DNA of 61,202 nucleotides from Thermoplasmata archaeon (lineage in GTDB: Archaea > Thermoplasmatota > Thermoplasmata > RBG-16-68-12). Of this stretch, positions 48,510 to 61,202 are shown in pieces (within the stretch, counting starts at the first letter, position 1; every line of letters begins with the position of its first letter). The notes beneath the pieces are model-generated. The model did no database searches, was not told the DNA's origin, and saw nothing but the letters and a program-made list of their open reading frames with translations. Both the position numbers and the translations under genes were made by a program. The DNA lies in contig DASWDU010000007.1 of assembly GCA_036395115.1 (NCBI GenBank), positions 1 to 61,202 of the forward strand, read 5' to 3'.

Positions 48510-51500
48510 CTACATCTCTGCGGCGCGCACGCCGAGGAGGAACGTCTCCTCGCCCAAGCCCGCCTCGATGACGTACGCGTCGTCCGCCGGCTCCTGCACG
48601 AACGTCACCTCGAGCGCGTTCGCCTCCCGGAGGACCATGTCTTTCCAAGGTTGCAACATGGCGCGCAGCCCCTGCGCCGCGACCAGCTCGATCTCGACGA
48701 CGCGGTCCTCCGCGATGTGCATGTCTTTGCGGGCTTCTTTGACGAGCGTCACGATTTCCTTCGCGTAGCCTTCCGCGATCAGCTCCTTCGTCATGCGCGT
48801 GTCGAGGTACACGACGCCGCCTTCGAACGGCTCCTCGACGACGTGATCGGGGACCGACTCGACGAACGACACCATCGACGGATCGATCCGGACCTTCTGT
48901 CCCTCGATCCCGACCGAGTATTCGCCTCGCTCGAGGCCCGCCTTGATCTTCCAGGCGTCCTGCGAGCGCAGCAGGATCTCGATCTTCCTCGCCCAGAGCT
49001 TGTAGGACGCGCTCACGGAGTCCATGTGCACCTGCACGTCGATTTTCATCCCGCGCCACGTGTCGTCCGGGAGGACGAGGTCGAGTTCCTTCGCGCCGCT
49101 CTGGCCGACGATGACCTTCCGGAACGCGCTCACGGCATCGTAGCCGGCCTGATCCGCCGTCTTGACAGCGATCCGGGCGACGGGCCAATACCGCTCGATT
49201 CCCGCGCGGCGCTTCGCCTGGAACGTGGCCTCGAGCGTGAGCCGCAGGAACTCGACGTAGGAGTTCACCTGTTCGTCCGAGATCTGGAGGGTGCCCGCCT
49301 CCTTCGAGGCGGTGATCGCCTGCCGGATCTGCTTCGCGATCTCCTCCGTCGGGCCCACGGTCGCGTTCGAGATCTGTTGCAGAACCGCCACCCCCTGCTC
49401 GTACCCTCTCGACTCGATCGCGGCCCTCGCCCAGCCCACGAAGTCCTGATTTCCTTCGCCGGCGAGTAGCCCGCGCTCCATCATCATCGGGATCTTGCTG
49501 ACGGCGGTGTCCTCGAGCGGCCCGAGGGAGACGCCGTCCACATCGGTCGCGAAGAGCGCCTTCCGCACGAGGTCGCGGATGCCGACAAGTTCGGCGGGGT
49601 CGCCGGTCCACGCCTCGAGGCGCGGTCCGTAGACGTCGTGGATCTCGCGCAGGATGTGCATGAGGTAGAGCAGGAGGATCGACGGCTCGCGTCCCTGGAT
49701 CGAGACGACGAGGATCGCCTGCGGCGCGCGCAGGGCGACGATCGGCACGCCGGCGATCGTCGTGCGCTTCACCGGCTTCGCGCCCGCCGGGAACGCCTTC
49801 GCGACGAACGCCTTGATCTGCTCCTCGAACGCCGCTGCCTTCGAGAGGTCTTCCACCGGGAGGTACGCGCGCGCCTCATGGCACACGATCGCCCCGGTCG
49901 AATGGAACAGGAGGGCGTCCTCGATGACGTAGCCGCCTTCCGGTTCGACGCGCACGATCGCGGTGTCCGTCGTCTGGTGCTTCCCCTCGTCGAGCGGGCG
50001 CGTGTAATGGACCTCGAAGTCGAGGTCCATCGTGCCCGCCTCCTTCGGCTTGAGTCCGAACTCGAGCGTCGTCTTTTCGTTCGGCTCGAGCTTCTCGATG
50101 ACCTTGAGTCCCTGCACGTCGACGGGCCCGGTGACGATCGGAGTGACGTGCTCGGCGGGCCAGTTCCCTTTGTTCGTGATCGCCATCTCGAACCGGCTCC
50201 AGCGGTTCGCCTGAAGGCCCGGGCCCTTCGTCTCGAGGAAGAGCCGCGGGTAGCGGTCTTTCAGGATTTGCTCGACGCGTGCCTTTGCGGTCTGTCCGGC
50301 GCGATCGATGAGCGGTTCGAGCCCCGTCAAGTCCTCGGTCCGCAGGGCGTCCTCGGCTTTCTGGAGCAGGGCCTCGACGTCGCTGACGTCCACGTGGACG
50401 GCTTTCGCGTGGGCGACGATCGCCTGGACCTTGGCGAGGTCGGCCCGGCCCTTCTCGAGCATGGTCCGCCGGCGTTGGCGCGCGAGCGACTCTTTCGCCC
50501 GCCGGAGGAAGTCCTCCATCTGGCGGGGATTTTTCTTCTGGATCGCCCCCTCGATCTTCGTGAGGTACGATTCCGCCTCGCGGACGTCGAGGTTCTGGCT
50601 CTTCGCGATCTGGATGTCGTTGATCAGGGACGCGAGCTCGACTTCGACTTTCTTCGACGCGACCTCCCCCTTCTGGCGCTCGAGGGACTCGTGGAGGCCC
50701 TGCTGGATCTCCCGCACCCGCTCGTATTTGCCCTCGGCGAACGCCTCCTCCGCCTCGCGGAGCAGGAGCTCCGCCTGGCTCGTGTCCGCGCCGATCCCTT
50801 TCATCTCCGCGACGGTGTCGCGCGCGGCCGCAAGGATGTCCGCCATGCGGTCCCGGAGTTGCGCCTGGATCGAGTCCGCCTGGGATTTCGCCTTCTCAAT
50901 GAACTGCCATGCGAGCTGGATGTCGCTCTCGAGCGTGGACTGCGCCTGGCGCAGGAGTTCGTTCGCCGCCATCGCCTGCTCCGCACCGAGCGCCTCGATG
51001 ACCCTCGCGGTCAGCGTCACGGGGCTGTCCGACAGCGCTCCCATGTCCGCCGAGGGATCTTTCGCGACCAACAGGAGCTTCTTGATGACCTCCTCGACGC
51101 CCTCGAGCTGGTGCAGGAGGCCGGTCCACTTCTCGAGGACATTCCCGTACCGGTCCTCGACCTCCTTGAGGATCTGGAGCATGTAGAGCGGAAGGAGCTT
51201 CGGCTCCTGGCCGATGAGGACCGTCGCGAGGAACGTGTGCGGCGACCGCTCGATCAGGATTTTCGAATCCCCGAAGTCGAGCCGCTTCATACCGACCCGC
51301 GTCCGCGCCTTGAACGAGTCCTTGACGAAATCCTGGACGACCGTCAGCATCCCGGAGAAGATGTCCTCGTCGATCTCCTCACGGAACTTCCGGCTGTGGT
51401 GCGCGATGAGCCGGCCGTCCGAGTGAATCAAGAAGACGTCCTCGACGAGGTACGTGGCTTCGGGCTCGACGCGGACCTCCTTCGTATCGCGGACCTCGTA

Positions 51501-54500
51501 GCGGTTCTCGTCGAACAGCCGCTGGTACGAGATGCCGACCGCGATGGGCACGGAGCCGGTGCCCTTCGGCTTCAGGCCCACCCGCACCGGCACGGACTCT
51601 CCCACCCCGATCTCGGGGATCGTCTGGACGCCCTTCGACTCGATGTCCCCGGAGAACTCGATGTGCACGTTCCGGGCCGGCAGCTTCCCGCGGTTCTCGA
51701 CCTCGAGCAGGTACTGGTTCCACTCGCCCGCCTGCAGGCCCGCGGTCGGGAGGCGGAGCGCCAGGTTCGGATAGCGGTTCTTGATGAAGTTCTGGATCTG
51801 GATGCCGATCGAGACCTCGGCCTGCTTGATCAGGATGTCCGCCATGGCCATGTCGCTCGCGCGGAGCGCGGCTTCCGCCTGGTCGAGCGAGCTCTCCGCG
51901 TCTCCGAGTTCCGCGCCGAGGCGCTTCGCGTTCGCGATCATCGTCGAGACAGCGTGGACCCGGGACTCGTACTTGTCGAGGAAGTGGCGGCCGCGCGATT
52001 CGTCGAGCGCCGCGCGCGCTTCCGAAAGGCCTGCCTGGAACCGCTCGATGTCCCCCTGGGCGATCGCGGTCCTCGCTTCCTCGAGGTGGGCCCGCGCGTC
52101 GCCTGCCGGGATCCCGAGTCGCTCCGACTGCGTCACGACCTCTTCGAGGGACTGGATCTCGCCCATCGACCGCTTCCTGAGGGAATGTCGTCTCGCGTCG
52201 AGGAGTCGTCCCTGGAGCTCCTCCCGAAGGCGACACACCGCTTCGAGGTCGTCCGCCTGCGCGGCGTCCGCGGCGTGTGTCCGGTACTCGTCCAGCTCTT
52301 CCGGGCGCAGGCCGAGGGAAGTGCCCTCCTCAACCAAGGGCGCGAACGAGTCCACGAGGGAGCCGAGGTGGGCCTTGCGCGCCATGTCGATCTCTTCGGC
52401 GACCCGCTTCGAGAAGGCGCCGACCTCGTCGAGTGTGCCGGCGTCGATATCCGCCTGCGCTTTCGACAGGAGCTCGGACGCCATGCGGACGTCGGCCCCG
52501 AGCCTCGCGGTGGCCTCCACCCTCGCGCGGAGTTCGGTAAGTCCCTCCCGGGCCGCGTCGGCCTCTTTCGCGCGGCGCGTCTCTTCGAGGATGTCCTCGA
52601 TGACCTTCTTGTATTCGATCGCCTCGACGAACCGGCCGTCGTTGATTGCCTCGCGCGCGTTCTGCAGGACGGAATCCGCTCGACCCGGATCCAAGCCGCC
52701 GGCGCGCACCTCCTCGATCTCGGTCTGCGCGAACCCCACGAGGTCTTTCGCTGCCGCCTCGAGGCCGACCGTGAGGCCGGCGGCCATGTCGCGCGTCTCC
52801 GCGAGGGCGGGCCCGATCTCCTGGTAGCGAGCCGCCTCGAACGCGGCCTCGGCCCGGGCGAGCGCCCGTTCCGACCCGAGGATCGAGATGTCCGCGCGGG
52901 CCAAGTCCAACATCGTCTTCCGGATCGCGGCGAGTTCGGCGCGGGCGGCTTCTTGGGCGTTCCGGAGCCCTTCCGCCTTCGCGTCCGTCTGCGCCCGGAG
53001 CGCCTCCGCCAATTTCTGTTCGGCGGCCCGCGCGTGTTCCACCGCATCCGCGTACTCGCCTCGCTCGAAGTGTCCTTCGGCCTTGTCGAGCAGGCCGACG
53101 GCCTCCGCGAGTTCGATCCCGGCTTCGCGGCCATCGTGGATCTTCCGTTCCGCGCGTCCGATCAGGTTCCGCGAGGCCGCGACGAGCTCGTCCATCAGCT
53201 CCTTCGCGGTGCGGTCGAGGCTCGCCAAGATCGCGTCGACGTCGTCGAAGTCCCGTTTCTCGAGCGCCCGCTCGGCGGCCCGCAGGCCCTCCTCGGCCCC
53301 GGCGATGTCGATGTCCGCCTTCCGGAGGTCCTCGATCAGCTTCTTGACCGTGATGAACTTCGTCGCGGCGCCGCGTGCCTTGTCGAGCACGCGCCGCTGC
53401 TCCTCCAGGTACCGCTCCCTCCGTCGCTCCGCGACCTTCCGTTCGAGTTCCCCGAGCGCATCGAGGACCGCCGCGTGCCGGCCTTCGTTCACGGCCGTCT
53501 CCATCGTCGCGAGGATCGGATCCAGATCGTCCGGAGGAACGCCCTCTTTCTTCGCCTCGTCAGCGAGACGCCAGGCGCGCTCGGACGCCTCCCGTGCCTG
53601 CCACTGCAAGGTGACTTTGACGCCCTCAACGATCCCTTCCGCGGAGGCGACGAGGTGCTCCGCCTCGTCCATCGCCCCGCCCTCGATCGCCCGTTCCGCC
53701 GCGTCGAGGACCTCCGTGGCCTTCTCGAGGTCGAGGTGGTTCGCGACGAGGTCCGCCATCTGCGCGCGGACCGCCTCCGTGCGGCGATGGATCGCCTCCG
53801 TGCGCTCCTGCTTCGCCCGGACCTCCTCCTTCACCGTCTTCTGTTTCGTGTCGTTCGCGGTCCGCGTGATTTCCTCGATCTCGGAGATGCAGGCCTTGCC
53901 GATGTAGAGCGTGTCGCCGTATCGCGCCTCCGCGTACGCGGTCCCCGCCTGCGAGAGCATCAGTTCTGCCCCCTCGATCGGGACTCCGTCCGACCGTGCG
54001 CCCACGACGACGCCGCGCGCCTCTCCGAGCACCTCCGCGGCGGCGCTGCGCAACAGCTCGCGCGTCGCGTGGATGTCGTGCTCGATGCCGTCGAGGAGAG
54101 CGTCCGCGTTGAGGAACCGGTGTTCCTCGACCGCGATCGCGACGTCCGCGAGCTTGCCTTCGAGGGCCACCGTGTCGGTCTGGCCCGCCTGGCGCAATCC
54201 GACGATGTCGTCGCGGGCGCGGAGCACGTGTTCGCTCAGGCGGGCCTCCGTCTGGGCGTCGGCGTCCGCCATCCGACTGTCGATGATCGCCTGCATGTCG
54301 ATTTGTCGTCCCAGCGAAATCGCGTCGTCGACCTCCCGGAGGAGCTGCCGCGCCACCGCGGGGTCGAGGCCCCGGGCCGCGTTCGCCAGGATGATCTGCA
54401 AGGACCGCTCCATGATCGAGCGGTGGTGCGCGTCGCGCGCCGATTCCGCGGTGCGACGCGCCCGGGCCACGAGACGTCGTGCGTTCGGCAGGTCGTGGTC

Positions 54501-55667
54501 TTCGAGCGCACGCGTCAGGTCGACCAAGGTCGTCTCGAACTCGCCTGCCTCCGCACCGAGCTTCCGCAGGTCTTCCGCGTCGAGCCGGAGGCTCGCGAAC
54601 GCGTCTTGGACGGACTTCAGGAGGGCGGCCTCACGCACCGCCTCGTGAGCGTCCCGCGCGAGGGCCCGCACCTTCGCATACTCTTTCGATGCGAGGGCCG
54701 TCGAGGCCTGTCCGAACATCGCTTCCGCGTGGCTCACGTCGGCGCCCTTCCGCCGTTCGCGCGACGACTCGCGTTCCGACTCTCGGAGGGACGATTCGGC
54801 CGCAGCGTACCGCCGCGCCTCCCGAAGGCTGTTCCGCGCCCGCTGGGCGAGGAGCGGGATGTCCGCGAACACGCCGCGCCGGAGCGCATCCCGCGCCTGG
54901 GTGAGGACCTTCCGGGCGTCGGTGATGTTGACGCCGTCCTTCCGGGCCGCATCGACGTCCGCCGCCGCGCGGTCCAGGATGTCCTCCGCCCGGGCGTACT
55001 TCCGCTGCTGCTCCGCCTTCTCGATCGCCTTCGCGGTGAGCGTCCGGATCTTGCCGTATTCCCGGCGCGCGAGCGCCTTCCGGCCGTCTGCGACGAGCGC
55101 CTCCGCGTCCTCGACGTGGCCCCCGCGCTCTTTCGCGTACCGGACCTGCGAGGCCGCCTTGTCGAGCAGGCCTTGGAGCGCCCTCTCGCGGCGTTGGTCC
55201 AGCGTCCGGGTCGAGACGCGCCGCAGGAGCTTCTCGGCGGTGACGAAGTCCCCGCGGGCACTGATCGCCCGAGCCTGTTCGATATTCCGTTGGAACGCGA
55301 GGGTTTCGATGCCCGCTTCCTTCGCTTCCTCTAGGATCGTATCCGACCGGGCGAGCACCTCGACGACCCGCGCCTTGCGTTTCGCGATTTCGAGCGTGCG
55401 TCGCGAGGCACGGGCCAGATCCAGGGCCTTGCCGAGGTCGCCCGCGGCTTCCGTCTGCTCCGCCCGCTCTGTCAGCCGTCGCGCGAACGAGGCGTCCACC
55501 GAGTCCGGGGTCGACGCGACGAGGTCCTTCCGCGCCGCATCGATCGCCTTTCGCACGACGTCGGGCGCGGCACGCGCCGTCGGCGCGCGGTCGAACGGCT
55601 GCCCGCAGACGTCGCACGTGGTGCGTCCATCCGAGACCTCCGATTCGCAGAGTGGGCAGTGGGCCAT
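48510..55667 (-). CDS. Giant helical-repeat protein with zinc ribbon, longin-like domains and IleRS-type C-terminus
   Basis: 2385 residues from ATG 55667 (TTG 55676 adds three). Order: zinc ribbon (CPLCE...CDVCGQPF), then about 20 helical repeats of 60-90 residues with a core GxDxxxAxxLLxxAExALxxG, then xFxxAxxLxxxA. Twice comes a beta sandwich (LRLPTAGLQAGEWNQYLLEV; LETKGPGLQANRWSRFEMAI) followed by a roadblock/longin-like domain (VFLIHSDGRLIAHHSRKF; ALLFHSTGAIVCHEARAY). The last ~250 residues (48513-49262) resemble the anticodon-binding end of archaeal IleRS (DUF5915): AKRRAGIERYWPVARIAV and LDTRMTKELIAEGYAKEIV. No membrane helix or ATPase motif is seen, so a cytosolic scaffold or filament is inferred. 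A TATA box TATAAAT lies near 55735-55741. Confidence 0.85.
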   Translation of the reverse strand: MAHCPLCESEVSDGRTTCDVCGQPFDRAPTARAAPDVVRKAIDAARKDLVASTPDSVDASFARRLTERAEQTEAAGDLGKALDLARASRRTLEIAKRKARVVEVLARSDTILEEAKEAGIETLAFQRNIEQARAISARGDFVTAEKLLRRVSTRTLDQRRERALQGLLDKAASQVRYAKERGGHVEDAEALVADGRKALARREYGKIRTLTAKAIEKAEQQRKYARAEDILDRAAADVDAARKDGVNITDARKVLTQARDALRRGVFADIPLLAQRARNSLREARRYAAAESSLRESERESSRERRKGADVSHAEAMFGQASTALASKEYAKVRALARDAHEAVREAALLKSVQDAFASLRLDAEDLRKLGAEAGEFETTLVDLTRALEDHDLPNARRLVARARRTAESARDAHHRSIMERSLQIILANAARGLDPAVARQLLREVDDAISLGRQIDMQAIIDSRMADADAQTEARLSEHVLRARDDIVGLRQAGQTDTVALEGKLADVAIAVEEHRFLNADALLDGIEHDIHATRELLRSAAAEVLGEARGVVVGARSDGVPIEGAELMLSQAGTAYAEARYGDTLYIGKACISEIEEITRTANDTKQKTVKEEVRAKQERTEAIHRRTEAVRAQMADLVANHLDLEKATEVLDAAERAIEGGAMDEAEHLVASAEGIVEGVKVTLQWQAREASERAWRLADEAKKEGVPPDDLDPILATMETAVNEGRHAAVLDALGELERKVAERRRERYLEEQRRVLDKARGAATKFITVKKLIEDLRKADIDIAGAEEGLRAAERALEKRDFDDVDAILASLDRTAKELMDELVAASRNLIGRAERKIHDGREAGIELAEAVGLLDKAEGHFERGEYADAVEHARAAEQKLAEALRAQTDAKAEGLRNAQEAARAELAAIRKTMLDLARADISILGSERALARAEAAFEAARYQEIGPALAETRDMAAGLTVGLEAAAKDLVGFAQTEIEEVRAGGLDPGRADSVLQNAREAINDGRFVEAIEYKKVIEDILEETRRAKEADAAREGLTELRARVEATARLGADVRMASELLSKAQADIDAGTLDEVGAFSKRVAEEIDMARKAHLGSLVDSFAPLVEEGTSLGLRPEELDEYRTHAADAAQADDLEAVCRLREELQGRLLDARRHSLRKRSMGEIQSLEEVVTQSERLGIPAGDARAHLEEARTAIAQGDIERFQAGLSEARAALDESRGRHFLDKYESRVHAVSTMIANAKRLGAELGDAESSLDQAEAALRASDMAMADILIKQAEVSIGIQIQNFIKNRYPNLALRLPTAGLQAGEWNQYLLEVENRGKLPARNVHIEFSGDIESKGVQTIPEIGVGESVPVRVGLKPKGTGSVPIAVGISYQRLFDENRYEVRDTKEVRVEPEATYLVEDVFLIHSDGRLIAHHSRKFREEIDEDIFSGMLTVVQDFVKDSFKARTRVGMKRLDFGDSKILIERSPHTFLATVLIGQEPKLLPLYMLQILKEVEDRYGNVLEKWTGLLHQLEGVEEVIKKLLLVAKDPSADMGALSDSPVTLTARVIEALGAEQAMAANELLRQAQSTLESDIQLAWQFIEKAKSQADSIQAQLRDRMADILAAARDTVAEMKGIGADTSQAELLLREAEEAFAEGKYERVREIQQGLHESLERQKGEVASKKVEVELASLINDIQIAKSQNLDVREAESYLTKIEGAIQKKNPRQMEDFLRRAKESLARQRRRTMLEKGRADLAKVQAIVAHAKAVHVDVSDVEALLQKAEDALRTEDLTGLEPLIDRAGQTAKARVEQILKDRYPRLFLETKGPGLQANRWSRFEMAITNKGNWPAEHVTPIVTGPVDVQGLKVIEKLEPNEKTTLEFGLKPKEAGTMDLDFEVHYTRPLDEGKHQTTDTAIVRVEPEGGYVIEDALLFHSTGAIVCHEARAYLPVEDLSKAAAFEEQIKAFVAKAFPAGAKPVKRTTIAGVPIVALRAPQAILVVSIQGREPSILLLYLMHILREIHDVYGPRLEAWTGDPAELVGIRDLVRKALFATDVDGVSLGPLEDTAVSKIPMMMERGLLAGEGNQDFVGWARAAIESRGYEQGVAVLQQISNATVGPTEEIAKQIRQAITASKEAGTLQISDEQVNSYVEFLRLTLEATFQAKRRAGIERYWPVARIAVKTADQAGYDAVSAFRKVIVGQSGAKELDLVLPDDTWRGMKIDVQVHMDSVSASYKLWARKIEILLRSQDAWKIKAGLERGEYSVGIEGQKVRIDPSMVSFVESVPDHVVEEPFEGGVVYLDTRMTKELIAEGYAKEIVTLVKEARKDMHIAEDRVVEIELVAAQGLRAMLQPWKDMVLREANALEVTFVQEPADDAYVIEAGLGEETFLLGVRAAEM

Positions 55668-55731
55668 GGCCTCCAACCGAGGGGATACCCTCCGCGACGG
55701 GAGGGCAGACGGCGTCGGATGCCCGCTTGGC

Positions 55732-56515: not shown

Positions 56516-56980
56516 TCATTTCGACGTCGAAAATAGGCTGCGGAAGAACCCCCTCAGTTTGCCGATCCGAAGGACCTTGCCCAAGAACGAGAGGAGTTCC
56601 CGATCCCGTCTCGCGAGAGCCGCCTCGTACATCGCTTGGACCAACGGGATGACGTGACGCTGGTAGTCGATGAGATTGCGCCACTGGAATCCTGCGATGG
56701 CGAGGGAGGCGGCGATCGTCCAGATCGCCGGGACACCCTGGAGGAGCGGGTGGAGCCAGGCCGGGATGTACGGCTTCAGGCCGATCATCAGGATCCAGAA
56801 GACAGGGATCGCGGTCGCGATCGTGCACTTGATCCAATCCCACGTGTGGCGTTTCTTGATCCGCGTCAGGAGGAATTGGAGCGTCTCGATTTCGGTCTCC
56901 TGGGTGGCGGAACGGCGCGCGTATCCGCGCAGCATTCCCCGCTCCGCGTCTTGGGCAGCCCGGCGCCTCCAGATTCGCAT
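56516..56980 (-). CDS. Membrane protein following truncated cassette C
   Basis: 154 residues from ATG 56980, starting ~24 bases after the end of the truncated cassette. An N-terminal Arg-rich region and a short coiled coil (QETEIETLQFLLTRIKKR) precede two or three membrane helices (WIKCTIATAIPVFWILMIGL; GVPAIWTIAASLAIAGFQW). The C-terminal ~45 residues are helical and basic. No family is recognised. Its position, immediately after a copy of the conserved block, is the same as that of the PH-like membrane proteins after copies A and B. It may be the partner or immunity protein of that cassette (inference). Confidence 0.6.
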   Translation of the reverse strand: MRIWRRRAAQDAERGMLRGYARRSATQETEIETLQFLLTRIKKRHTWDWIKCTIATAIPVFWILMIGLKPYIPAWLHPLLQGVPAIWTIAASLAIAGFQWRNLIDYQRHVIPLVQAMYEAALARRDRELLSFLGKVLRIGKLRGFFRSLFSTSK

Positions 56981-57004
56981 CGACGACCGCTCGGTTCGTC
57001 GCCA

Positions 57005-57490
57005 TTAGGTCCGAGCCGCGGCATAAAACGTTTGGAGCAAGCCAGGCCTCTGCATCTTCTGGCCGACGCACAGGACGGAGTTGACGACCGTCGAGGCGGC
57101 GGCCCCGATCTTCTGCCAGAAGTCCTGCGGCATCGCGCCGGTCGGGCCGATCGTCACGGAGGCCCAGGGGAGGATCTTCACGACGTCGGATGGGAGGTTC
57201 ATCAGGACGACGTACGACGTGACGTCGACGTACGCATACACGACGACGTTCGTCGTGTTCCGCAGGAGCCGGCTCAGGACGTCATAGGCGTCGGCGCCGG
57301 AGAGCGACGTCGCGATCGTCCCCGCGACGCTCTCCGAGACCTTCGACTGGCTCAGATTCTCCCCGTACAATGGCGCGTACGTCAGTGGCGAGAACGTCCC
57401 GCCGTCGAAGTCCTTCCGCAACTTCGAGTCGAGGAAGATCGAGCGTGGGACGACGACCGCGTTCACGCCGACGACCGTGGCCCCGTAGCA
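57005..57490 (-). pseudogene. Cassette C: truncated copy of the conserved block
   Basis: The frame is open from a TGA at ~57507 and has no convincing start; only an internal GTG at 57466 is available. It encodes KCYGATVVGVNAVVVPRSIF..., then YGENLSQSKVSESVAG and VDVTSYVVLMNLPSDVVKIL, nearly identical to cassette A at 59910-61202. It ends early in a short unrelated tail (CVGQKMQRPGLLQTFYAA). Nucleotides 57061-57358 align without gaps to 60905-61202. Since cassette A runs off the window, C also shows what lies just upstream in A. It reads as a leftover or silent donor copy lacking both 5' end and full tail. Confidence 0.65.
57061..57358 (-). repeat. Conserved-block repeat, copy in cassette C
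   Basis: Aligns with a constant offset of 3844 to 60905-61202 (window end) with only scattered mismatches and no gaps. Long stretches are identical, for example around 57081-57140. The high nucleotide identity implies recent duplication or gene conversion. Confidence 0.85.
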
Positions 57491-57492
57491 TT

Positions 57493-57909
57493 TCAGGATC
57501 CCTCTTCACCGACCCGACGCCTCAGCTCATCGAAGAATGCCGACTGTGAGGCGATTCGGACCTTGGACAGGTAGATCTTTCTCCCGTTCGTTAGCATCAA
57601 CTGAAACACCCAAGAATCTTCTCTGGGATCGAAGTTCGCAATCTTCGAATAAGGGATTTGTCGCGACCCTGCCCGAATCGAGTTGCTTTCCAAGCTGACG
57701 GGCATCATCGCACGACGGAAGGCGAACGCAGCCATGATCTCTCCCAATGTCCACGTGACAAGAATCAGTCCCAGCTCAAGGGTTCTCAACGGTTCCGGAC
57801 TCGGGAAGGTCACGAAAATAGAGAGGGGAACACCACACACTATCGACAGGAGCGCGGCCCCTCCCAGATAGTACCAAACCGCTTGACGGCGCGCAGTTCC
57901 GCTCTCCGT
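57493..57909 (-). CDS. Membrane protein with PH-like domain following cassette B
   Basis: Immediately after the cassette B stop, in the same frame, begins ACG-GAG-AGC..., encoding ESGTARRQAVWYYLGGAALL and a first membrane helix. The only standard start, GTG 57840, would cut that helix. ACG 57909 preceded by a G-rich stretch is a candidate start (138 residues). A second helix (LELGLILVTWTLGEIMAAF) is followed by a PH-like domain: SNSIRAGSRQIPYSKIANFD, WVFQLMLTNGRKIYLSKV. Base composition is AT-richer than the rest of the window. The same two-helix plus PH layout follows cassette A, so it may protect against or partner with the cassette product (inference). Confidence 0.55.
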   Translation of the reverse strand, partial: TESGTARRQAVWYYLGGAALLSIVCGVPLSIFVTFPSPEPLRTLELGLILVTWTLGEIMAAFAFRRAMMPVSLESNSIRAGSRQIPYSKIANFDPREDSWVFQLMLTNGRKIYLSKVRIASQSAFFDELRRRVGEEGS

Positions 57910-57912
57910 GCT

Positions 57913-58986
57913 TCAACACCCCCGCCCGGCGAGGCACTGGCCAACCGCAATCCCGGTCTGCGCTGCATCGAAGCCGAGAGTCGCAGCCTCAAGGAACTCG
58001 TCCACCTGACCGAACCACCCGGGTCCGAAATCCTTTCCACCCAAAGCCAGCATCAATCCGATATAGCTCAACGCAGTACCCGCAACTGCCACCGGGACAG
58101 CCGCGCCGAGGCTTGCAGCCACCGGCCCAATGACGAAGACCATGAGCGCACCCAGGAGATTTAGCATGAGGGCCACAACGTCCACAATGAAATCCTTGAA
58201 CGGTACCTCGGCGATTAGCGCATATACCACCATGATTGCATTCCAAACGACCTCGATCGAGGCAAGTATCTCTCCCGGAAGTGCGCCCGTTCCCGCAATC
58301 TCGGCGAGCATCCATCCGGTTGCGGCGCTGAGCACGATTGTCGTGATGACCCAATTCAAGATGGCAGTCCGGACAATCCCCTTTAGCACCCCCTGCACAA
58401 CCGCAACTACCGCGCCGGCCGGCGTCGCGATTGCAATGAAGCCGATGACGGACATGGCAACGACGAAAGCTCCCGCCAAGGCAATGATGAGGTTCGGAAA
58501 CGGACCGCGGAGGAGGACATTCGCAAGGTCTGCCGCCTCGGCGTGCGACGGACTGCCCGTGATTGCATAGGCTAATAGGACGCGGGAGAAGCCCGATGCC
58601 ACCTGGCTTGCCCATGTGTTCATCATATCGAGGATTGGACGAAGGAAAACATCAACGGCCGCTTGGAGTACCTGCCTGATGAAATCCAGGACCCAACTTG
58701 CGAACTGGTTGAGCACCGTCGTCGCTGCCTGCGCGACCGCCACGACCGTGTTCCACACGGCCCCGAGCGCCTTCATCCCCCAGTCCACGATCGCCTCCGC
58801 CAGGTTCACGAGGAACGTCCCGAGGGCGACGAGTCCGTCGTAGAACATCTGGCCGAGCTGCACGAGGACGTTCACGAAGCCCGGCATGCCGTCGGGCGCC
58901 GCGCCCGTCGCGCCGTTCGTCACCTTCGCCCACGGCAGGATGCGCACGACGTCGGTCGGCAGGTTCGCGAGGAGGACACACAACAT
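57913..58986 (-). CDS. Cassette B: conserved block joined to a polytopic membrane tail
   Basis: 357 residues from ATG 58986. Homology to cassette A starts abruptly at LLANLPTDVVRILPWA, so the upstream part present in A and C is missing and the ATG was created at or near a junction. Then come GLVALGTFLVNLAEAI and DWGMKALGAVWNTVVAV, shared with A. After this the sequence diverges into ~200 residues with repeated hydrophobic segments (IIALAGAFVVAMSVIGFIAI; GALMVFVIGPVAASLGAAV) and a Cys-containing end (GQCLAGRGC). It resembles a pore- or membrane-inserting protein; no family is recognised. AT content rises in the divergent part, as in a foreign segment. Confidence 0.65.
   Translation of the reverse strand: MLCVLLANLPTDVVRILPWAKVTNGATGAAPDGMPGFVNVLVQLGQMFYDGLVALGTFLVNLAEAIVDWGMKALGAVWNTVVAVAQAATTVLNQFASWVLDFIRQVLQAAVDVFLRPILDMMNTWASQVASGFSRVLLAYAITGSPSHAEAADLANVLLRGPFPNLIIALAGAFVVAMSVIGFIAIATPAGAVVAVVQGVLKGIVRTAILNWVITTIVLSAATGWMLAEIAGTGALPGEILASIEVVWNAIMVVYALIAEVPFKDFIVDVVALMLNLLGALMVFVIGPVAASLGAAVPVAVAGTALSYIGLMLALGGKDFGPGWFGQVDEFLEAATLGFDAAQTGIAVGQCLAGRGC
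58734..58880 (-). repeat. Second conserved-block repeat, copy in cassette B
   Basis: Aligns at offset 2054 with 60788-60934 in cassette A; near-identical at the nucleotide level from ~58734 to 58800, then slightly diverged. Confidence 0.8.
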
Positions 58987-59085
58987 ATGGCGTCCGCGAC
59001 TGGCAACCTGATGAGAAAAGACCGTCCGCCTCGCTTTGAGGAGCCCAAGTGCTTGGACGAATCGCGACCTCGGAAGGGCTGCATC

Positions 59086-59880
59086 TCAGGAGACGGCACC
59101 ACCGTCCCGCGAGTGTCCGGGACCGAACCGAGCGTACCAAGAACGGGAGGTCGGGAGTCCGAACCGTTCGACATCCTCCGCCTTCATCAGGAACAAGGTC
59201 CCGTCAGCGAGTTCGAATTCGTAAGAATTCGGAGCGCCTTCTGTATGCAACTTTCGCACTCGTGAGACATCTGTCGGCGATACAGTTTGGATCAATGAAT
59301 CGGAGTACGTCAGAACGGGACGGGAGAGAAGGATTGAATCCCCTTTCATCCGCCGCAGCTCCACGAAGAGCAACACGTTGCCACGATTGGCATGCGCTTG
59401 CAGGACCTCCCGGTAGGATTTGCCGAATGCCGCGCTCAGATCTTCCAGCACCTTCATACCAGAGCGGACGAACATCGATCGAGGCAGGAAGAACTCTGTG
59501 CCGTCAATGAGCGTGACCTCGACCCCATCGGTACGATCTGTGCCGAAAGATGGTTCAACCTCGGTTATCTCCGTGAGAAGGACGGACTTAGAGAATATCC
59601 CGTTAGTTCGCTTGATCGGAAACGCCAGACGCAAGACTCCGTTCTCAATAGAAGGGATTCGTTCCAACGAGGTGATTCTGACAAGAGCTACCAAGATCCC
59701 GAGGACGATCGTGACCAGACCAGCCCCCACAAGGGTGAAGACGCTTAGGGAGCCCTCCTCGATGATTGCCGAGCCGACGATATAGAGTAGTGCAATTGCT
59801 GCGGAGGCGTAGAGGATCATCTGGAGGGCCTTCGACGAGCGACGGATGACGCGCGCTCGGCGTGGAGGAGAATAGTTCAA
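59086..59880 (-). CDS. Membrane protein with PH-like domains following cassette A
   Basis: 264 residues from TTG 59880, or 244 from ATG 59820; the frame is open further but would overlap cassette A. Two membrane helices come first (MILYASAAIALLYIVGSAII; TLVGAGLVTIVLGILVALVR). Then a PH-like unit: SIENGVLRLAFPIKRTNG, LLTEITEVEPSFGTD, VEVTLIDGTEFFLPRSMF. A second, similar stretch comes near the end (ANRGNVLLFVELRRMKGD; SYEFELADGTLFLMKAEDVE). It has the same layout as the protein after cassette B but is duplicated in length. The DNA is clearly less GC-rich than the flanking housekeeping genes. A partner or immunity role is inferred from position. Confidence 0.6.
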   Translation of the reverse strand: MNYSPPRRARVIRRSSKALQMILYASAAIALLYIVGSAIIEEGSLSVFTLVGAGLVTIVLGILVALVRITSLERIPSIENGVLRLAFPIKRTNGIFSKSVLLTEITEVEPSFGTDRTDGVEVTLIDGTEFFLPRSMFVRSGMKVLEDLSAAFGKSYREVLQAHANRGNVLLFVELRRMKGDSILLSRPVLTYSDSLIQTVSPTDVSRVRKLHTEGAPNSYEFELADGTLFLMKAEDVERFGLPTSRSWYARFGPGHSRDGGAVS

Positions 59881-59909
59881 CTTGGCGAGAGAAGACCTCG
59901 ATTGCGGAC

Positions 59910-61202
59910 TTATCCTGCCCCACCTCCGCCTTCGGTTTGCTGGTATCCCCCCGTTGCGGCGGTTGCGGCGATTTTTAGTCCGACGATGGTAGGTGAAAGT
60001 AGTGTTACCCACTTGACGATGGCGGATGACAATGGACTTACGAACTCGGTGATTTCCAAGATGATATCATGCTTAGCCTTCGTAGATAGGTAGAGAAAGA
60101 AGCCGTACGTGGAAAGCAGAAACCCGAGGACATCTACGGCTAACCTGGCAAGACCCTTTCTCGCGTACAGGATACCGGCCCCGACGAGGAGCAGGCCCAC
60201 CACTGCCAAGCCAAATCCTTTCCAGCGTTGCAAGGACGTGATGTCCCTCGAAGTCTTAACAAAGAGCGTTTCATAGAGGCGGAATTCAACCTTCGCGACT
60301 GCCGAGAATGTGGCCGCCGCGCCTGCAATCGTGGCAAAGAACGCGGCCGTCTGATCTTCGACCCAAGACATCGCCTCGAGAATCCTTGTGAACAAGGCTC
60401 CGACGGCTAACGAGAATGCGGTCAGGACGAGCGTGCTAATAATGAAGTCGACGACTCCTTCGGATACAGCGGTCTCGATGAGCCAAGATACGCCAAGGGT
60501 AAGCGCTTTGAACGCGAGGAAGGCGACAGTCACCGCGACAGGAACCAATGCAATGATCAAAAGTATGGTTTCGAGAGTAGACAAGAAGGCGTTCAAGCTG
60601 CTCTCCGCCGCAGCCGAATCGGGATTCGCTACCGCTCCCTCCAAGTCGAACACCATCGATCCAAGCGTCCGTGCAAGAAGGCTGCTCACCATAGCGAGCA
60701 ACCCCGCTAGAGCACTATTGACGCCGTTGATTACGGCTTGGATTATCGCGTCCAAGAATTGCCCGAGCACCTCCCCCGCTTTCTGCACGACCGCCACGAC
60801 CGTGTTCCACACGGCCCCGAGCGCCTTCATCCCCCAGTCCGCGATCGCCTCCGCCAGGTTGACGAGGAACGTGCCTAGCGCCACGAGTCCCTTGTAGATC
60901 ATCTGGCCGACGACCAGGAGGGAGTTGACGACCGTCGAGGCGGCGGCCCCGATCTTCTGCCAGAAGTCCTGCGGCATCGCGCCCGAGGGCCCGATCGTCA
61001 CGGAGGCCCAGGGGAGGATCTTCACGACGTCGGCTGGGAGATTCATCAAGACGACGTACGACGTGACGTCGACGTACGTGTACACGAGGACGTTCGTCGC
61101 GTTCCGCAGGAGGCGGTACAGGACGTTGACCGCGTCGACGCCGGACAGCGAGAGGGCGACGACTCCCGAGACGCTCTCCGAGACGCTGGTCTGACTCAGG
61201 TT
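59910..61202 (-). CDS. Cassette A: conserved block joined to a different polytopic tail, 5' end outside window
   Basis: The frame is open to the right edge, so the N-terminus is missing (430 codons seen). Conserved block: NLSQTSVSESVSGVVALSLS, VDVTSYVVLMNLPADVVKIL, GAMPQDFWQKIGAAASTVV, GLVALGTFLVNLAEAIADWG. After KAGEVLGQFLDAIIQAV the sequence is unique: ~300 residues with 6-7 hydrophobic segments (TILLIIALVPVAVTVAFLAF; GFGLAVVGLLLVGAGILYA) and a Gly-rich end. The tail is AT-richer than the block. Homologous blocks B and C carry different tails. Function unknown. A long secreted or membrane protein with exchangeable C-terminal modules is inferred. Confidence 0.7.
   Translation of the reverse strand, partial: NLSQTSVSESVSGVVALSLSGVDAVNVLYRLLRNATNVLVYTYVDVTSYVVLMNLPADVVKILPWASVTIGPSGAMPQDFWQKIGAAASTVVNSLLVVGQMIYKGLVALGTFLVNLAEAIADWGMKALGAVWNTVVAVVQKAGEVLGQFLDAIIQAVINGVNSALAGLLAMVSSLLARTLGSMVFDLEGAVANPDSAAAESSLNAFLSTLETILLIIALVPVAVTVAFLAFKALTLGVSWLIETAVSEGVVDFIISTLVLTAFSLAVGALFTRILEAMSWVEDQTAAFFATIAGAAATFSAVAKVEFRLYETLFVKTSRDITSLQRWKGFGLAVVGLLLVGAGILYARKGLARLAVDVLGFLLSTYGFFLYLSTKAKHDIILEITEFVSPLSSAIVKWVTLLSPTIVGLKIAATAATGGYQQTEGGGGAG
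60788..60934 (-). repeat. Second conserved-block repeat, copy in cassette A
   Basis: Partner of 58734-58880. It encodes the LGTFLVNLAEAI and GMKALGAVWNTVVAV part of the block. Confidence 0.8.
60905..61202 (-). repeat. Conserved-block repeat, copy in cassette A
   Basis: Partner of 57061-57358. The homology continues to the window edge and presumably beyond. Confidence 0.85.

Follow-up and report, generated by a model that had tools for sequence, protein, structure and literature searches.

The minus strand of contig C7 (DASWDU010000007.1) of a Thermoplasmata archaeon (assembly GCA_036395115.1), a soil member of the Thermoplasmatota, carries at 57045-61202 three partial copies of one GC-rich block, arranged in the order A, C, B, and raises the question of what kind of system keeps truncated copies of a gene in a row, each with a different ending. 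The window, that is, the whole stretch of DNA analysed here, is this entire contig of 61,202 nucleotides (nt) and stops at the contig end; the source genome comprises 2.4 Mb in 50 contigs and is 98% complete. We propose that the locus is probably the 3' end, together with part of the orphan array, of a polymorphic toxin-immunity-like system with membrane-active warheads.

Shared blocks and exchanged tails

From position 61202 downward, the minus strand contains block A, tail A, partner gene A, block C, tail C, partner gene C and block B (Table 1). Because the window is the whole contig, copy A stops where the contig does, with its 5' part missing from view; what remains probably represents the 3' portion of a full-length gene. 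A sequence-only reading of this DNA had described three partial copies lying head to tail on the minus strand, and same-strand matches confirm this arrangement: copy A aligns with copy B over 300 base pairs (bp) (60898-61197 with 57054-57353, 87% DNA identity) and with copy C over 176 bp (60756-60931 with 58702-58877, 84%), the E-values of 4e-103 and 4e-47 excluding chance similarity. Where they overlap, the block copies are 84-88% identical in DNA, so that "nearly identical", as that reading put it, was an overstatement. The lack of a 5' part that it ascribed to both B and C applies to C; copy B continues on the 5' side beyond the visible A sequence, and has neither the 3' part nor a tail. 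Two further block copies, D and E, are located on contig C20 of the same genome, and C and D share 94.7% DNA identity over 226 bp.

The sharp switch from the block to unrelated, AT-richer tails, likewise part of the sequence-only reading, was borne out for A and C: blastp detected no similarity between the two tails, and the GC content is 65-70% in the blocks and 55-59% in the tails, with 66.7% in the rest of the window. The GC content at third codon positions (GC3) is 91-98% in all blocks of the window and 64-68% in tails and partner genes, and the drop across the switch, from 95-98% in the block to 64-68% in the tail, makes the joint between the two a real compositional step. Given their common GC3, tail and partner appear to travel together. 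In blastp comparisons among the collected open reading frames (ORFs), tail A matched only itself; partner A has a weak relative (L021:9555-10142). Genome G012 carries a relic with 70% identity to 40 amino acids (aa) close to the end of tail C and, beside this relic, a homologue of partner C; tail F and its partner likewise recur as linked relics in other species.

Block copies within one genome share 29-98% protein identity, with DNA identities of 99.5% over 221 bp at L119 and 98.8% over 169 bp at L110. Despite the common block, the tails have no detectable similarity in 8 of 15 same-genome pairs.

A small membrane protein had been proposed to follow each copy, which stands for A and C and fails for B. 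The ORF behind B recurs in four further genomes of the genus (69-73% identity), and genome G005 is colinear with the window leftwards from 57044 (84-90% DNA identity); this conservation and synteny place the ORF outside the system, and it was rejected as a third partner gene. The junction of copy B with the promoter region of this flanking gene marks B as a remnant at the array edge.

Relatives across the Thermoplasmatota

The block was found by protein search in 3 of the 19 genomes of the genus, this one included. Profile A3 detected it in the class (17 of 400 genomes). A wider profile, A7, gave 7 positives among 117 genomes of one order, 15 among 147 of another and 19 among 390 of the phylum, one of these last lying outside the class. 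The genome lists of the profile searches overlap, and their union comprises 39 different positive Thermoplasmatota genomes. Members of two block-positive families carry MCR alpha and are therefore methanogens, by inference Methanomassiliicoccales. The most conserved motif of the block is NLPxDVLxxIPxxxVxNSxTGxxP. We found no convincing match to the block in Pfam, NCBIfam, PHROGs, PADLOC or PDB, which fits the statement of the sequence-only reading that no archaeal family with this block was known; no relative was found in viral contigs or plasmids.

The full-length relatives comprise 1,821 aa (L059), 1,949 aa (L058, cut), 2,390 aa (L060), 1,133 aa (L061), 1,026 aa (L068, a frame) and 3,622 aa (G183:C29, a frame). 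In all of these, an N-terminal signal (where the start is present) is followed by a repeat stalk, the block and a hydrophobic C-terminal tail of ~200-310 aa. A hydrophobic N-terminal export signal was recognized by eye in L059, L060 and L061; the stalk repeats, where Pfam matched, are of the PKD, FN3-like or TSP3 type. Orphan arrays, in which a truncated block, a new tail and a partner are repeated in tandem, occur at L063, L064, L065, L066, L109, L110 and L119; cassette C of the window is an orphan of this kind. Assignment of the relatives' tails to phage tape-measure proteins was rejected, the weak matches being attributed to common helical composition.

A search for the full-length gene in this genome with the L021 stalk yielded only distant proteins on contigs C37 and C42. 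At L021, an Ig- and TSP3-encoding ORF continues into masked sequence; long runs of N (L021:1648-6381, L022:4938-9000 and, similarly, L023:8802-13535) lie just upstream of partner-gene arrays, where the full-length gene would be expected. Contig C37 encodes a secreted, TSP3-repeat-like protein of 1,550 aa (L031:3040-7689), which is hydrophobic towards its C-terminus, lacks the block and is 29% identical to the L021 stalk, as well as a 1,904 aa Rhs/YD-repeat protein with, by eye, a hydrophobic C-terminal tail (L031:9177-14888).

Partner genes

For the analysis of partner genes, we counted the 31 cassettes whose tails reach 120 aa or more, and a partner was defined as an ORF of 100-340 aa with at least two predicted membrane helices located no more than 300 nt downstream. 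Such an ORF lies behind 25 of the 31 cassettes, whereas among the other genes of these loci the proportion is 16 of 116 (Fisher p 3e-12); many of these ORFs overlap the tail or begin 4 nt past it. In the window, partner A consists of two predicted membrane helices followed by a soluble domain, and partner C combines two predicted membrane helices with a soluble domain weakly similar to bPH_6 (E 0.033). A partner profile built from the first set of loci also matches the second set, at L114 and L119 (twice) and more weakly at L109 and L110. In 15 pairs of cassettes, the tails resemble each other and so do the partners, compared with 2.6 such pairs expected; none of 20,000 permutations gave a value as high.

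Several small membrane ORFs without tails lie on contig C20 (L012:5355-9671); these are possibly orphan partner genes retained after toxin loss.

Toxin-immunity system or another kind of locus

The sequence-only reading had pointed either to a polymorphic effector locus that stores C-terminal modules with immunity genes or to surface proteins varied by recombination; the first proposal is supported by the full-length relatives, the orphan arrays, the pairing and the composition. The testable general features of polymorphic toxins were all found, namely, a conserved N-terminal part with variable C-terminal modules, a small downstream gene, orphan cassettes and an export signal.

Under the mechanism that we envisage, the giant protein would be displayed on, or shed from, the surface of the producer and touch a neighbouring cell, into whose membrane the tail would insert, probably as a pore or a depolarizing channel; the partner protein, residing in the producer's own membrane, would protect the producer. 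Recombination within the block would replace the current tail and partner with a stored pair, and the replaced pair would be pushed downstream, where the toxin parts would decay and the partner genes could persist. The cassettes are best read as displaced modules able to recombine back into the main gene. In bacteria, deployment of Rhs orphans by recombination with the main gene has been shown experimentally (Koskiniemi 2014, PMC3967940). Sequence features argue for the secretion, diversity, pairing and storage in this scheme; contact, membrane insertion and killing, along with protection, are steps that we infer.

Several points weigh against this reading. The assembly does not contain this genome's full-length gene, and since copies B, D and E have the look of fragments in decay, the array may be partly dead. 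The pairing statistic (15 against 2.6) is partly confounded by genome relatedness. The PH-type similarity is weak, with bPH_6 matched in 2 of 29 partner members (best E 6e-5) and bPH_10 in one (0.021), and the membrane helices of tails and partners were predicted from hydropathy alone. AlphaFold models of block plus tail A and of partner A, built on thin alignments, are of low confidence (mean predicted local distance difference test scores of 43 and 46, respectively), and hence support neither a pore fold nor a PH fold. Finally, it is we who infer that the tails are toxic and the partners protective.

Stalks of Ig, PKD and TSP3 repeats are typical of adhesins, the tails are membrane helices rather than known enzymes, and the VARTIG loci have a similar layout, with membrane proteins behind particular variants (PMC8416519). 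These features would also suit a variable surface protein, or a VARTIG-like system of self/non-self recognition without killing, in which the tails would be alternative membrane anchors or serve in signalling, with the small membrane protein as a matched subunit. Plain anchors, however, need neither diversity nor a cognate partner nor stored orphans, and relic partners persist after toxin loss (L022:1694-2260 and, possibly, several ORFs on C20), as immunity genes would. We regard surface variation as unlikely and favour a toxin-immunity system on account of the full-length relatives, the orphan arrays in unrelated genera, the position of the partner directly behind the tail, the common composition of tail and partner, and their conserved pairing.

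It is considerably less likely still that the copies are decayed duplicates, left by duplication and recombination and without present function in this genome. Such an origin would agree with the absence of tails from B, D and E, with the missing start of C and with the scarcity of the block in the genus, where only 3 of 19 genomes are positive, but copy A is open through block, tail and partner, the ratio of nonsynonymous to synonymous substitution rates is 0.29-0.33 for the A-E and C-D pairs (0.29 for A versus E), and intact giants and arrays exist in many genera. An assembly artefact, with collapsed or chimeric repeats at the contig end, is barely credible: although a contig break within copy A is what a repeat would be expected to cause, the divergence of the copies (12-16%) is too large for them to have been collapsed, synteny with G005 brackets the left junction, and the order of block, tail and partner is contiguous in independent genomes of many genera.

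Comparison with known systems

The Rhs main and orphan loci (PMC3482391, PMC3967940) resemble the present system in their long conserved N-terminal part, variable C-terminal module and small gene directly behind it, as well as in downstream orphan fragments that retain part of the conserved sequence and in recombination in the common block. Unlike in Rhs and other bacterial polymorphic toxins, the block here has no database match, the tails are hydrophobic instead of being the usual nucleases or other enzymes, and the host is an archaeon. Neither YD repeats nor filamentous haemagglutinin domains were found in the scanned full-length relatives, for which Pfam and NCBIfam returned only PKD, TSP3 and other Ig-like or FN3-like domains; CdiB was not sought.

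Previously reported archaeal polymorphic toxins, considered here only through PMC8416519, share the archaeal host and, presumably, a role in intermicrobial conflict. That source describes DNases and RNases as their commonest warheads; no DNase or RNase domain was found in the present system, although some overlap between the two may exist. VARTIG of Thermococcales, described in the same paper, is similar in combining a large Ig-type surface protein, a variable C-terminus, downstream membrane proteins and recombination. The variable part of VARTIG is an Ig domain, whereas the present loci vary in a membrane tail that follows a conserved block; in the C-terminal tails of the relatives, Pfam matched no Ig domain, and several membrane helices are predicted instead. 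The authors found no VARTIG counterparts outside Thermococcales (PMC8416519). The locus thus does not qualify as an Rhs, contact-dependent inhibition or VARTIG system.

In Tse5, a pore-forming Rhs toxin with a cognate immunity protein (PMC10684867), the C-terminal module inserts into the target membrane and depolarizes it, as we propose for the tails; Tse5 has an Rhs shell and is delivered by a type VI secretion system, and is likened to the present system by function only. The bPH_2 (YdbT-like) proteins encoded in leaderless bacteriocin clusters, for example, that of enterocin DD14 (PMC7332713), are small, combine two membrane helices with a PH-type domain (weakly indicated here) and are found beside a membrane-active toxin; there, the toxin is a peptide, whereas here it is a giant protein. 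A transport role for bacterial PH proteins is proposed in a title cited in PMC11580447. The Tse5-type Rhs pore modules and the membrane PH-type proteins beside leaderless bacteriocins would be the closest functional analogues, the proposed likeness being one of function.

Feature coordinates and neighbouring genes

Table 1. Coordinates of the array and of the flanking gene in the window
Feature	Position	Strand	Remarks
Copy A (shared block, C-terminal ~145 aa of the block)	60768-61202	-	in frame to the contig end; 66% GC, GC3 95%
Tail A	59910-60767	-	~285 aa, hydrophobic, about 4 predicted membrane helices; GC3 64%
Partner (immunity-like) gene A	59086-59877	-	at least 263 aa, the start being uncertain (ORF extends to 60012); GC3 65%
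Copy C (5'-truncated block, from LANLPTDVVRILPW)	58702-58977	-	DNA match to copy D
Tail C	57913-58701	-	~262 aa, hydrophobic, about 6 predicted membrane helices
Partner (immunity-like) gene C	57493-57912	-	139 aa, start 4 nt past tail C
Copy B (block fragment without tail)	57045-57505	-	ends at ~57054, joined to the promoter region of the flanking gene
Flanking gene, 154 aa	56516-56980	-	conserved in the genus; outside the system, left boundary

No tRNA, a possible integration site, was found in the window; one tRNA-Arg lies near the cluster on C20. The array adjoins an ORF for a 2,388 aa coiled-coil-like protein (48510-55676), which is conserved in G005. Directly after the truncated copy D is a nucleotidyltransferase/HEPN-like gene pair, assigned by motif (L012:7598-8284), and in two species a conserved gene for a secreted protein of 858/876 aa adjoins the cassette cluster (L012:10467-13043 and L021:10401-13031).

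Implications for archaeal antagonism

Polymorphic toxins have been described as rare in archaea (PMC3482391), and antagonism between archaea is poorly known. The chances seem to us about evenly balanced that the loci described here represent a weapon class spanning the phylum Thermoplasmatota, from soil lineages to methanogens, with a block and stalks of its own, warheads that all insert into membranes, immunity proteins that are without exception small, located in the membrane and equipped with a PH-like domain, and orphan arrays that recombine into the main gene. With the block profile, such loci are readily located, and the family would offer a handle on competition among archaea, on the entry of toxins into archaeal membranes and on variation driven by recombination.
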